Source of the DNA: Rhizobium sp. Q54
GTDB taxonomy: Bacteria; Pseudomonadota; Alphaproteobacteria; Micropepsales; Micropepsaceae
Assembly: GCA_945860165.1 (NCBI GenBank)
Contig: CAMAPL010000002.1
Location: 62,001 to 126,000 of the forward strand
DNA length: 64,000 bases
Direction: 5' to 3'
Shown here: positions 6,590-37,750 of the stretch, piece by piece
How the letters are laid out: each line of letters begins with the position of its first letter
Position numbering within the stretch: position 1 is the first letter of the stretch
Position numbers and translations under genes: made by a program
Notes under the pieces: generated by a model
Database searches by the model: none
What the model saw: only the letters and a program-made list of their open reading frames with translations
Told to the model about the DNA's origin: nothing

Positions 6590-6643
6590 ATGGTCGCGCC
6601 GCGAGACCCTCGGCTTTGCCTCGGGTTCGCGGTCGCCTTCGAG
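6590..6643. repeat. Hairpin element, possible diverged relative of the AATGGTCGC repeat
   Basis: The intergenic space between gluQ and the esterase begins ATGGTCGCGCC, the same opening as the repeats near 12.0, 22.5 and 36.9 kb. It continues into a stem (CCGCGAGACCC pairing with GGGTTCGCGG, one bulge) and ends GGTCGCC. Beyond the first 11 bases it does not align with the other copies, so membership is uncertain. Confidence 0.35.
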
Positions 6644-12037: not shown

Positions 12038-12132
12038 GGAGCGACCAGCAACCCTAGCGGGAGCGAGGGCCCCGCGCGCTTCGCGCGCTATTAATCTGAA
12101 GGGGCGCTCCGCGCCCGTTCGGCGCGACCATT
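12038..12132 (-). repeat. Double-hairpin dispersed repeat, copy A
   Basis: A 95-nt element aligns along its whole length with 22497-22590. On the minus strand it begins AATGGTCGCGCC, then a GGGCGC/GCGCCC hairpin, a short AT-rich spacer (CAGATTAATA) and a second hairpin GCGCGC-GAA-GCGCGC, ending in GCTCC. It starts six bases after the stop of the response-regulator gene. A fragment with the same TTAATGGTCGC opening follows at about 12002-12035, as if a second copy had been truncated. No T-run follows, so it is not a simple intrinsic terminator. Confidence 0.7.
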
Positions 12133-12138
12133 AAAGAA

Positions 12139-22496: not shown

Positions 22497-22590
22497 GGAG
22501 CGACGAGCCGGCGAAGCGTCAGCGAAGTCGCCCGGCGCCGGAGGCGCCTATTTATCAATGGGCGCATTCGCGCCCGTGCGCGCGACCATT
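22497..22590 (-). repeat. Double-hairpin dispersed repeat, copy B
   Basis: The 94-nt element aligns end to end with copy A (12038-12132). Read on the minus strand it starts AATGGTCGCGCG, then a GGGCGC-GAAT-GCGCCC hairpin, spacer TTGATAAATA, a second hairpin GGCGCC-TCC-GGCGCC, and ends GCTCC. It begins directly after the xth TGA and ends directly before the GTG of the phosphatase gene, filling the intergenic space exactly. Stem bases differ from copy A in compensating ways, so the folded shape is conserved more than the sequence. Confidence 0.75.
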
Positions 22591-28690: not shown

Positions 28691-29275
28691 ATGGACGAAG
28701 AAACCCGTCTTTCCACTCTGACCTTCACCGCCTGGGCGGATGCTTTCTCGCGCGAAGAGGTCGACCGGATCGTGGCCTATGGTGACGGGCTGACGACGGA
28801 ACGGGCGGTGCCCCATGACATTCCCGCAAGCCGGCGGGCCGCGTTCGACAAGGTCCGCATCACCCACGCCGCCTGGATCGAACAGAAGGCCGAAACCAAA
28901 TGGCTTTTCGAGCGCATGCAGGGCGTGGCGCAGGCCCTGAACGACAGCACCTACCAGTATGACCTGCGCGGTTTTTCTGAGAATTTCCAGTACACCGTTT
29001 ATCACGGCGTGGAAGGCGGCCATTATGACTGGCACGTCGATCACGGGCCGATGCATGTGCAGCGCAAGCTTTCCATGACGGTGCAACTCAGTGATCATTC
29101 GGCGTATGAAGGTTGCAACCTAGAATTCTGCGCCAGCGGCAATATTGAAACCGCGCCGCGCGAGCAGGGCACGGTGATCGCTTTTCCATCCTATGTGCTG
29201 CACCGCGTGACACCCATCGTTTCGGGCACGCGCAGATCGTTGGTGGTCTGGACGACCGGACCGAAGTTCAAGTGA
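28691..29275 (+). CDS. 2OG-Fe(II) oxygenase family protein, paralogue 1
   Basis: The 194-residue protein has a double-stranded beta-helix of the prolyl-4-hydroxylase type. The iron triad is H and D in HYDWHVDHG and the distal His in SYVLHRVTPIVSG, with the 2-oxoglutarate-binding Arg in TRRSLVVW. FQYTVYHGVEGGHYDWH and LSMTVQLSDHSAYEGC(N)LEF are the most conserved blocks among the tandem copies. The N-terminal half is helical. It is the first of four paralogues on the same strand. Substrate unknown: possibilities are a protein side chain, a peptide or a small molecule. Confidence 0.87.
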   Translation: MDEETRLSTLTFTAWADAFSREEVDRIVAYGDGLTTERAVPHDIPASRRAAFDKVRITHAAWIEQKAETKWLFERMQGVAQALNDSTYQYDLRGFSENFQYTVYHGVEGGHYDWHVDHGPMHVQRKLSMTVQLSDHSAYEGCNLEFCASGNIETAPREQGTVIAFPSYVLHRVTPIVSGTRRSLVVWTTGPKFK

Positions 29276-29315
29276 AGAGCATTTCTGTATTAAAGTAATA
29301 TGCTGAGGGGCATGC

Positions 29316-29915
29316 ATGTCTGTTTTTAATCCCGCGACATCGCCAGTGATAATGAGCGGCGGGCTGATCGTCTGGGTGAATCTGTTCACGCCTGCGGAAC
29401 TGGACGCCATGGAGCAATATGGCGACCGGCTAACGCATGAGAAAGCCGAACTGTCCGCGAAGAATACCGGCCGTGACAGTATCCGCGTCACCAAGGTCGC
29501 CTGGGTGATGCGTAATGCGCAGACGGAAGCATTCTATGCAAAGGTGGAGGATGCGGTCCTGCGCCTGAACGCACAGTTCTTCCACTACGATCTTTCTGGG
29601 GTGGCGACGTTCCAGTACGCCCTTTATGACGGTGCGGAAGGCGGACGGTTCGACTGGCACAAGGATTACGGCAAGGATTACGGCGCCCCGGACCAGGAGC
29701 CTCGCAAATTGTCGCTGAGCATCCAGTTGAGCGATCCTGCAAAGTATGAAGGCTGCGAACTGGAAGTGCGCGCCGGCAATCTGACCGATGTCGCGCCCAG
29801 GACACGCGGCGCCGTCATCGCCTTCCCGTCTTATGTTCTGCACCGCGTGACACCGATAACATCAGGTGTACGAAAATCACTCGTTGTCTGGGCGGTGGGA
29901 CCGGAGTTCAAGTAA
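29316..29915 (+). CDS. 2OG-Fe(II) oxygenase family protein, paralogue 2
   Basis: The 199-residue protein has the same fold as its neighbours, with the triad in FDWHKDYG and SYVLHRVTPITSG and the cofactor Arg in VRKSLVVWAVGPEFK. Directly after the HxD motif the sequence KDYGKDYG is an exact 12-base tandem duplication (29661-29672 and 29673-29684), adding four residues to the loop beside the metal site relative to paralogues 1 and 3. It starts 40 bases after paralogue 1, behind its own AT-rich leader, and ends eight bases before paralogue 3. Confidence 0.87.
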   Translation: MSVFNPATSPVIMSGGLIVWVNLFTPAELDAMEQYGDRLTHEKAELSAKNTGRDSIRVTKVAWVMRNAQTEAFYAKVEDAVLRLNAQFFHYDLSGVATFQYALYDGAEGGRFDWHKDYGKDYGAPDQEPRKLSLSIQLSDPAKYEGCELEVRAGNLTDVAPRTRGAVIAFPSYVLHRVTPITSGVRKSLVVWAVGPEFK

Positions 29916-29923
29916 GCCCTGGA

Positions 29924-30535
29924 ATGACAACGTTAAAAGGCCATCTAATGTTATTATCGCCGCTTGCGACCTCGCCTGTGCCCGTAGGCGAATTTGTCCA
30001 GTGGGAAGATGTTTTCAGCGCCGCCGAACTGGCAGCGATCGGAAAATATGGCGATGGCTTGGCGCAGCAGAAGGCGGACCTGTCAGGCCGCCGTGCCGTT
30101 TACGACACGATCCGCATCACCAATGTCGCATGGATCGAACGCAGGCCGGAGACAGCCTGGCTCACTGCCCGCCTGGAACAGATTGTGCTGCGGCTCAACG
30201 ATCAATTCTTCGGCTATGAATTATACGGGCTGGCGGAAAGTTTTCAGTACACCGTCTATCATGGCGGCGAGGGCGGACATTTCGACTGGCACAAGGATCA
30301 TGGCAATACGCGCGAAGAACCGCGCAAAATCTCCCTGAGCCTGCAATTGTCGGAAAGCGCCGCCTATGAAGGCTGCGAACTGGAATTCCATTCCGGCGAT
30401 ACCGTGCAGGCCGCGCCCAAAAAGCGCGGAACTCTGATCGCCTTTCCTTCTTATGTGTTGCATCGCGTCACCCCCATTGTTTCGGGCATCCGCAAATCAC
30501 TGGTGATCTGGGCGGCGGGTCCGGAGTTTCGATGA
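29924..30535 (+). CDS. 2OG-Fe(II) oxygenase family protein, paralogue 3
   Basis: The 203-residue protein keeps the triad in FDWHKDHG and SYVLHRVTPIVSG with Arg in IRKSLVIWAAGPEFR. Its N-terminus is longer; ATG 29948 (MLLSPLATSPVPVGEF) is an alternative start. It is closest to paralogue 2 in the C-terminal half (PRKISLSLQLSESAAYEGCELEF). Its TGA overlaps the ATG of the decayed paralogue 4, showing that the array was once read as one operon. Confidence 0.87.
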   Translation: MTTLKGHLMLLSPLATSPVPVGEFVQWEDVFSAAELAAIGKYGDGLAQQKADLSGRRAVYDTIRITNVAWIERRPETAWLTARLEQIVLRLNDQFFGYELYGLAESFQYTVYHGGEGGHFDWHKDHGNTREEPRKISLSLQLSESAAYEGCELEFHSGDTVQAAPKKRGTLIAFPSYVLHRVTPIVSGIRKSLVIWAAGPEFR

Positions 30536-31109
30536 ATCTGACTGTTCCCGTCGTACAGGGGCCTTTCCTGGCCTGGGAAGGCGCGCTCAGGCCGGCGGAA
30601 GTGGGCGCCATTATCGCCTATAGCGATGCGCAGATACTTCAATAAGCGCAGAGCGCGGTCTAGCGCGCCGATCTCGAGGTCGTGCACATCATCCATCTCG
30701 CCTGACTTGAGCGCAATGCCGAAACCGAAAAATTCTATGAGCGACTCGCGTAGATCGTGCTGCGTCTCAATACCCAGTTCCACCGCTTTGCGCTGACCGG
30801 GCTCGAGAATCTGCAATGCACGGTCTATGACGGCAAGGAAGGCGGCCATTACGACTGACACATCGATTATGGCCGCAACAGCCACAAGCCGCGCAAGATC
30901 TCGCTGATCGTTCAACTCAGCGATCCATCGCACTATGAAGGCTGTGACCTGCAGTTCCAGATCGGCAGCGGGGTCACCACCGCGCCCAGGGCCGCGCGGC
31001 ACGGTGATCGCCTCCCCGTCCTTCTTCCTGCACCGGGTGACGCCGCTGACGGCGGGGGGGGGGGCGCAAGTCGCTGGTCCTCTGGGCCACGGGGCCGGAA
31101 TTCCGCTAA
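30532..31109 (+). pseudogene. 2OG-Fe(II) oxygenase, paralogue 4 (decayed)
   Basis: The frame opens with MNLTVPVVQGPFLAWEGALRP and follows the family (LERNAETEKFYERLA, LTGLENLQCTVYDGKEGGHYD, HIDYGRNSHKPRKISLIVQ, SDPSHYEGCDLQFQ, then WATGPEFR at the end). It contains stop codons after AQILQ, after AQSAV, after IIHLA, after YERLA and within the iron motif, where the Trp of YDWHID is TGA. Shifts of frame occur near 30985 and at a run of ten G near 31055. This many independent lesions cannot be sequencing error alone; the gene is dead. The downstream gene gpmI is intact. Confidence 0.9.
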
Positions 31110-36446: not shown

Positions 36447-36911
36447 ATGCCTTCCGATCTGCCATACCGGCCTTGCGTCGGCATCATGCTGTTCAACCAG
36501 GACGGCAAGGTGTTCGTGGGCAAGCGCATCGACCAGACCGTCGAAGGCTGGCAGATGCCGCAGGGCGGCATCGACGAAGGCGAGACTCCAAAACAGGCGG
36601 TCTTGCGCGAGCTGCGCGAAGAAGTCGGCACCGACAAGGCTGAGGTCCTGGGCGAGATGGATGATTGGGTGACATACGATCTGCCCAAGCATCTGATCGG
36701 CGTAGCTTTTCACGGCAAGTACAAAGGCCAGCGCCAGAAATGGTTTGCCCTGCGCTTCACCGGCCAGGAAGGTGACATCGATCTCACTGCGCACGAGCCG
36801 GAATTCTCCAGCTTCCAGTGGGTGAGCCTGGGCGCACTTCCCGGCCTGATCGTTCCCTTCAAGCGCGATATCTACAAAAAGGTGATTGCCGCGCTGGGCC
36901 AATACGCATGA
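36447..36911 (+). CDS. rppH: RNA pyrophosphohydrolase (Nudix)
   Basis: The 154-residue Nudix enzyme converts 5'-triphosphate mRNA ends to monophosphate, starting RNase E-dependent decay. The Nudix box GGIDEGETPKQAVLRELREE is complete at about residues 35-55; YRPCVGIMLFN and WQMPQGG at the front and WVTYDLP and HGKYKGQRQKWF match RppH specifically. It lies in the usual place after the deacetylase gene. The TGA overlaps the ATG of the hydrolase gene, and a dispersed repeat begins about 12 bases later. Confidence 0.94.
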   Translation: MPSDLPYRPCVGIMLFNQDGKVFVGKRIDQTVEGWQMPQGGIDEGETPKQAVLRELREEVGTDKAEVLGEMDDWVTYDLPKHLIGVAFHGKYKGQRQKWFALRFTGQEGDIDLTAHEPEFSSFQWVSLGALPGLIVPFKRDIYKKVIAALGQYA

Positions 36912-37750
36912 AGGCTTCTTGTGATGGTCGCTCTGTCCCGGCGCGCAAAGCGCGCCCATTGGAAAGTAGGGCGCATCGGCGCCCGGGCCAACGATCCCCC
37001 GTTCTGATGATCCATGGTGCTTTCTGCGGCGTCTGGTCCCTGGACGGGCTCAAGCAAAAATTCGAAGCCGCCGGTTACAAGGTCATCGCGCCGAGCTTGC
37101 GCTTTCACGACCATAGCCCGGCGCCCGCGGCGCTGGGCACCACGGGTCTGGCCGACTATGCCGCCGACCTGGAAGAAGAAATTGCAGCGCTGAAGCAGCC
37201 GCCGATTCTGGTGGGCCATTCCATGGGCGGATTGCTGGCGCAAATGCTGGCTGCCCGCACCAAGGTCGCGGCGCTGATCCTGCTGGCGCCATCGGCGCCA
37301 TGGGGCGTGTCGCCCACAACCTTGTTCGAGATCAGCGCCGCCCAGTCGATGTATATGCAGCCGGGCTATTGGAACAATGTGCTGGAGCCTAGCCGCGACG
37401 TTGCCCTGGCCCACTCCCTCGACAAGCTGCCCAAGGATACGCGCGACGCGGTGTATGACCGCTTTGTCCCGGAATCTGGCCGCGCTACCTTCGAGGTGAT
37501 GAACTGGGCTTTGGACATGAACCATGCCAGCGCGGTGGAGGCCGATACAGTCACGGCGCCAATGCTGTTTCTCACCGGTAGTGAGGATCGCATCAACCCA
37601 CCCAGCACTGTGGCCAAGATCGCCGCGCTGTATGGCGCGCGCGCCACGGCGGAAGTCTTGCCCGGCTTCGGCCATTGGCTGATCGGTGAACCGGGCTGGG
37701 AAAAAATGGCGAAGCGGATGCTGCTCTGGCTTGCAGAGAAGAAGATTTAG
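36908..37750 (+). CDS. Alpha/beta hydrolase with a repeat-encoded N-terminus
   Basis: The 280-residue protein has the oxyanion motif MIHGAFCGVWSLDGL, nucleophile elbow GHSMGG, acid in LTGSEDRINPP and His in GFGHWLIGEPGWE. All triad elements are present, so it is probably active; substrate unknown. The start at ATG 36908 overlaps rppH. Residues about 6-28 (GRSVPARKARPLES, RAHRRPGQ) are very basic and are encoded by the double-hairpin repeat, read in frame. Family members normally have only a few residues before the first strand. The first ATG beyond the repeat, at 37008, would delete that strand, so the long form is probably real. Confidence 0.85.
   Translation: MKASCDGRSVPARKARPLESRAHRRPGQRSPVLMIHGAFCGVWSLDGLKQKFEAAGYKVIAPSLRFHDHSPAPAALGTTGLADYAADLEEEIAALKQPPILVGHSMGGLLAQMLAARTKVAALILLAPSAPWGVSPTTLFEISAAQSMYMQPGYWNNVLEPSRDVALAHSLDKLPKDTRDAVYDRFVPESGRATFEVMNWALDMNHASAVEADTVTAPMLFLTGSEDRINPPSTVAKIAALYGARATAEVLPGFGHWLIGEPGWEKMAKRMLLWLAEKKI
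36924..36989 (+). repeat. Double-hairpin dispersed repeat, copy C (inside a coding region)
   Basis: Read on the plus strand the element starts ATGGTCGCTC, then a hairpin GGCGCGC-AAA-GCGCGCC, a spacer (CATTGGAAAGTA), and a second hairpin GGGCGC-ATCG-GCGCCC. It has the same architecture and orientation relative to the upstream gene as copies A and B: it opens with ATGGTCGC shortly after a stop codon, here that of rppH. Unlike A and B it is translated, as the first residues of the hydrolase. It is shorter (about 66 nt), lacking the last third. Confidence 0.6.

Follow-up and report, generated by a model that had tools for sequence, protein, structure and literature searches.

What are the three double hairpins that follow stop codons in a 64-kb stretch of an alphaproteobacterial genome (G000; we refer to the whole 64-kb stretch as the window)? 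The preliminary description of this DNA had proposed either an element for mRNA-end stability or processing, or a mobile palindromic element that favors 3' ends. We searched the window with a structural descriptor (two hairpins with GC stems of 6 bp or more and loops of 3-5 nt, joined by an AT-rich spacer of 8-16 nt). It matched exactly the three places already named, near 12.0, 22.5, and 36.9 kb (copies A, B, and C), and gave zero matches in 40 first-order Markov shuffles of the window. These three copies very probably belong to a family of small palindromic DNA elements that are mobile and non-autonomous, mosaic in build, and specific to the genus, comparable in kind to REP, RPE, and RIME.

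Copy A (outer frame and double-hairpin module; 12038..12131, reverse strand) lies between a response-regulator gene and a penicillin-binding protein gene. Its T-rich leader, TTCTTTA (12132..12138, reverse strand), is directly 3' of the TGA stop codon. Read in gene orientation, the copy runs ATGGTCGCGCCGAAC-GGGCGCGGAGCGCCC-CTTCAGATTAATA-GCGCGCGAAGCGCGC-GGGGCCCTCGC and onward, a layout common to B and C. The descriptor search places hairpin 1 (GGGCGC-GGA-GCGCCC) at 12102..12116 and hairpin 2 (GCGCGC-GAA-GCGCGC) at 12074..12088, and there is a third hairpin region (CCCTCGCTCCCGCTAGGG) at 12052..12069, all on the reverse strand; the same arm of the third hairpin occurs in L085, L100, and L109. An orthologous frame is present in G043/L115, L116, and L114. 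Copy B (frame and double-hairpin module; 22497..22589, reverse strand), with hairpin 1 at 22560..22575 and hairpin 2 at 22534..22548 on the same strand, fills the gap between xth and a histidine phosphatase gene, and the very next base begins the GTG start codon of the latter. The repeats had been described as beginning 0-13 bases after a stop codon. The ATGGTCGC onset does lie 7 (A), 1 (B), and 12 (C) nt past the stop codons of the response-regulator gene, xth, and rppH, but C falls in the coding region of the next gene.

RNA folding gave energy z-scores of -0.4 for A, -1.0 for B, and -2.1 for C. Since folding energy alone is unexceptional for A and B, it is the repeated layout that constitutes the evidence for these two copies. 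Copy A is the best covariance-model match (77.6 bits). A strict sequence search of its own genome with copy A recovered only short fragments because the stems diverge, and the 10-mer AATGGTCGCG is not over-represented on its own. In L115, L116, and L114, the last response-regulator codons form a terminator-like hairpin and T-tract (CAGGCTTTCAGCCTGATTTTTT) directly before the element; at the copy-A locus of the window, this hairpin and T-tract are degraded (CAGGCTTTCGGCGTGATTCTTT).

Copy C (36924..36996, forward strand) consists of the double hairpin, the start of the frame, and a short outer stem (GGTCG/CGATC). Its hairpin 1 (GGCGCGC-AAA-GCGCGCC) is at 36940..36956 and its hairpin 2 (GGGCGC-ATCG-GCGCCC) at 36969..36984, both located with the descriptor on the forward strand. 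The alpha/beta hydrolase gene that follows rppH (36908..37750, forward strand) starts in the rppH stop codon through an ATGA overlap, so copy C is not intergenic but lies in frame within the stretch encoding the hydrolase N-terminus. In relatives that retain the pair, rppH and the hydrolase gene overlap or are separated by a few dozen bases, often with ATGA. No element was found at this junction in any examined relative that keeps the gene pair, including G047, whose rppH is 90% identical. The hydrolase N-terminus reads MKKSPVLMIHG in G043 and VKPPVLMIHG in G047, and in the window genome it reads MK-ASCDGRSVPARKARPLESRAHRRPGQR-SPVLMIHG, a net in-frame gain of 78 nt relative to G043. The hydrolase domain recognized by Pfam begins just past the insert. 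The extra N-terminal residues are predicted, and a start codon further downstream is possible.

A fourth relative of the family in the window, absent from the preliminary description, was recognized by its pairing rule. This copy D (6590..6637, forward strand) is an outer frame without the double hairpin; it occupies a divergent gap with no preceding stop codon, and its near-identical counterpart in L116 likewise has no double hairpin.

A covariance model built from A, B, and C, the kind of search envisaged earlier, matched 14 of 41 same-genus genomes and revealed a dispersed family with conserved pairing. A second model, built from 24 copies, matched 28 of 69 same-genus genomes; the genus is sampled largely as metagenome assemblies. 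In a 190-genome sample of the class, matches occurred in the window's own genome and in one other only, the latter being weak. The family is apparently restricted to one alphaproteobacterial genus and previously uncatalogued. Matches numbered 18 in G066, 13 in G072, 11 each in G057 and G026, and at least 10 in G000, and many genomes had none; both strands of a single place were sometimes counted in these figures, and the count for G000 is a lower bound. We inspected 81 distinct places in detail, some of them orthologous to one another.

Full copies are about 90-137 nt long. Their first 8-10 nt are a T-rich leader, in which the share of T per position is roughly 50-78% in 63 copies, versus about 19% expected from base composition. 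The leader is followed by GGTCGCRCGGCC, hairpin 1 (type GGGCGC-GGA(C)-GCGCCC), an AT-rich spacer, hairpin 2 (types GGCGCC-TCC-GGCGCC or GCGCGC-GAA-GCGCGC), a third hairpin that is often GGAAAACCG...CACTTTTCC with variable contents, and TGGCCG(A/T)YGCTCC. The outer frame comprises the T-rich leader and GGTCGC...GCTCC, the ends of which pair in a stem of ~8 bp, usually with one bulged base, that encloses the third hairpin. One copy, L141, folds as a four-way junction.

The claim that pairing is kept while stem sequences differ is clear for the outer stem, which alternates at single positions: of the 63 copies compared, 36 have G-C and 21 have A-T at pair 3, and pair 5 is G-C in 41, C-G in 10, A-T in 4, and T-A in 3. 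Overall, 336 of 378 cells pair, compared to 267 +/- 5 after shuffling, the observed figure being inflated since the 3' end and the bulge were picked by pairing. Covariation in hairpins 1 and 2 is weaker; several pairs are invariant, and hairpin 2 comes in alternative types. Part of the stem variation noted there is a difference between two alternative types of stem, not point-by-point covariation.

To place the copies relative to genes, we used calls from a simple home-made codon-usage gene finder, which overlooks a number of genes, among them that of the response regulator next to copy A. The 66 copies comprise 38 in co-directional, 21 in convergent, and 7 in divergent gaps. Expectations by gap length are 32/11/23 (p = 5e-5), with divergent gaps under-used, and by gap number 38/15/13 (p = 0.08). 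Eleven copies are predicted inside genes; comparison with relatives confirms those in the MATE and Smr genes, and one at the N-terminus of CtaA looks real. The distance from the element to a stop codon is much shorter than that to a start codon, and in about ten cases the TAG of a gene shares its G with the element terminus (TA followed by GGAGC).

Proximity to stop codons is what would be expected if the hairpins protected or processed the end of the upstream mRNA, or attenuated read-through into the next gene. Such a role would also suit the strong pairing with compensatory changes and the common orientation of A, B, and C, and REPs of other bacteria are reported to act in this way (PMC3733652). 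However, the common orientation relative to the upstream gene, stressed in the preliminary description, is a small-sample effect, as the family in co-directional gaps divides 21 versus 17 (p = 0.63, no bias). Other copies occupy divergent gaps or are inserted in frame within genes, and orthologous junctions are patchily occupied. Because both orientations are used, copies lie inside genes, and the elements are not terminators, a strand-specific mRNA-end function is unsupported, and as the main reading an mRNA 3'-end element is quite unlikely. More generally, a position just after a stop codon does not by itself make a repeat an mRNA-end element.

The GC hairpins, and the location of 21 of the 66 copies between convergent genes, might instead indicate an intrinsic transcription terminator, possibly a two-way one, between neighbors. 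Yet the T-rich tract comes before the hairpins in frame orientation, and neither strand has a T-run after them, a point that was correctly made at the outset and that disfavors a plain terminator. Moreover, B and C stand between tightly spaced co-directional genes, and C is within the second gene. We regard a terminator as extremely improbable.

Orthologous junctions show the boundaries of the inserted DNA. At hpt, the copy in G047 separates two convergent genes. In G000, G012, G001, G025, and G024, the site is empty and the stop codons of these genes touch or overlap. These empty sites are precise, neither side having lost anything. Since the leader is absent from the empty site together with the element, the T-rich leader belongs to the inserted DNA. 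Some copies do follow terminator-like T-tracts, but this assignment led us to reject the idea that copies are terminators or target terminators. The exact placement between adjoining stop codons suggests that some of the crowding at stop codons may be target choice, but selection alone can give the same picture.

Occupancy of the xth-gpm junction is patchy as well, with copies in G000, G047, G023, and G024 and empty sites in many relatives. Junctions that are occupied in more than one species, as at locus A and xth-gpm, could reflect old inheritance with lineage losses, or conserved function, as opposed to repeated insertion, and some of the sites scored as empty may result from deletion. We saw no within-species insertion polymorphism among the genomes examined, so current movement is putative.

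Short, dispersed, non-coding copies with both filled and empty sites could also be classical MITEs, that is, deletion remnants of an insertion sequence (IS) that have terminal inverted repeats, create a target duplication, and are moved by the IS transposase. This origin is highly unlikely: the ends are not simple inverted repeats (GGTCGC... versus ...GCTCC; the outer arms pair, and the termini differ), flank matches equal those of a shuffled control, leaving target duplication no higher than chance, and a non-exhaustive look revealed no parent IS. There is a 10-bp flank match at L189, but this locus carries a duplicated msrB end. In L184, L189, and L197 (three genomes), part of the msrB 3' end is duplicated on the flanks of elements beside msrB.

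Two palindromic units make up this mosaic family: the outer frame, and a double-hairpin module of 45-51 nt that is either nested in the frame or inserted alone. The module may be absent, single, in tandem, nested at varying frame positions, or alone. At locus A, the module is missing from the frame of L116 and present in that of G000 and G043. The module is within the third hairpin, rather than before it, in L095, L103, and L092, and within a different palindrome in L101, L111, and L214; L194 and L213 carry it in tandem inside a single frame (three and two units, respectively). Some double hairpins in L163, L111, and L101 are enclosed by or adjacent to another type of palindromic repeat (GGGGGAGGTGG... 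/ CACCTCCCC...), which suggests that there are several palindromic families in the genus.

Both units also occur as insertions in genes. The MATE transporter gene of G044 contains a 45-nt in-frame insertion that is the double hairpin alone; it is absent in G001, the MATE protein of which is 97% identical. The Smr gene contains the frame only in G009, the frame and the module in G066, all in frame, and neither in G072 and G056, a pattern that points to nested in-frame insertion in two steps. Selection for translatability of the module was considered and rejected, as its open reading frames (4.07 of 6) show no excess over spacer-shuffled controls (4.20). In MATE, Smr, and the hydrolase, the element would be read in different frames and strands. 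The precise empty sites, the two-step nesting in Smr, the module-only insertion in MATE, and the stop-sharing termini provide exceptionally clear evidence on the assembly and insertion of such repeats, and make the spread of palindromic repeats that have no transposase testable in a defined set of related genomes.

The earlier suggestion of a mobile palindromic element favoring 3' ends is borne out by the further copies in relatives, the covariation of the outer stem, and the closeness of stop codons compared to start codons. Mobile palindromic DNA accounts for the patchiness, the empty sites, the nesting, the in-frame survivors, the absence of strand bias, and the crowding at stop codons. The units would move as DNA, and an enzyme acting in trans would probably recognize them in folded single-stranded form. 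They would survive mainly at harmless places, at stop codons or a few bases away, and other survivors would be insertions that happen to preserve the reading frame. A host benefit need not be assumed, and effects on RNA at gene ends, if any, would be secondary. Single-strand (HUH) transposases recognize bulged hairpins, and the bulged outer stem of the element recalls these. Mobilization by a resident Y1/RAYT gene (PF01797) was rejected, since none is present in G000; the gene is also absent from G001, G007, G009, G024, G032, G043, G044, and G047, and its distribution (13 of 41 genomes) does not match that of the carriers. We tentatively raise, as a rather doubtful extension, a two-tier system in which the 45-51 nt double hairpin would move by itself, with other palindromic elements, stop-codon junctions, and in-frame sites within genes as its targets, and would need neither target duplication nor a resident Y1 transposase. 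If true, this would point to an unrecognized mobilizing enzyme or a replication-based route that recognizes folded DNA and favors gene ends.

Among described repeats, the closest kind is the REP superfamily (PMC3733652), and we classify the element as a new family within a known kind. REPs form GTAG- and CGTC-tagged superfamilies (Di Nocera et al., 2013; PMC3733652). The CGTC-tagged members have a CGTC end, an 8-9 bp stem opening with AT pairs, and a CCA tail, and this superfamily is without a dedicated transposase (PMC3733652). Like REPs, REP dimers, and BIMEs, the elements described here are short GC hairpins, often paired with a spacer; as with REPs, they lie mainly in co-directional or convergent gaps within about 20 bp of gene 3' ends, have termini that supply stop codons, occur as dimers within other palindromes, and include some intragenic copies (PMC3733652). 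In contrast to REPs, they lack a GTAG or CGTC tag with the described stems. They form a bigger composite with a covarying outer stem, a T-rich leader, and a separable double hairpin, and here belong to one genus. No GTAG-type unpaired tetranucleotide beside hairpins 1 or 2 is shared among oriented copies; GTAG precedes hairpin 2 in copy C alone, and the right end of the frame begins with GGAG on the other strand. The CGTC-REP motifs are absent, the hairpins being pure G/C with loops of 3-5 nt.

Rickettsia palindromic elements (RPEs) insert in frame into unrelated genes of an alphaproteobacterium (PMC10969869; PMC3733652), and the insertions in MATE and Smr (internal), the hydrolase, and probably CtaA (N-terminus) resemble them. 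However, RPEs are about 150 bp long, encode a conserved peptide, and are nearly half intragenic, whereas most copies here are intergenic. The frame used also varies by gene and there is no excess of open frames, which gives no sign of a conserved encoded peptide. RIME and Bru-RS of Rhizobiales are mosaic intergenic palindromes in Alphaproteobacteria; their likeness to our family would lie in this mosaic build. The flanks of L103-type copies are weakly and non-significantly similar to Rhizobiales plasmids, and the frame and double hairpin had no significant match in a plasmid collection. CIR elements are about 100 bp long, have an inverted-repeat organization, and owe their name to an association with CcrM (GANTC) sites. 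A CcrM-linked element of this type was rejected because GANTC is depleted in the copies (3 sites in 63 copies; 0.42 per kb versus 1.64 in the loci). With the CIR elements of Caulobacter among the alphaproteobacterial intergenic repeats on record (PMC10969869), our results extend the small palindromic repeats of this class by a family that is apparently undescribed. Rfam 15 recognized only a tRNA in the window and, in seven loci, only a tRNA and one chance-level match outside the elements.

Elsewhere in the window (28691-31066), four paralogues are arranged in tandem, the first three being 2OG-Fe(II) oxygenases (PF13640). The fourth (about 30805-31066) looks like a pseudogene because it is without a long ORF and has TGA where the other copies have TGG.
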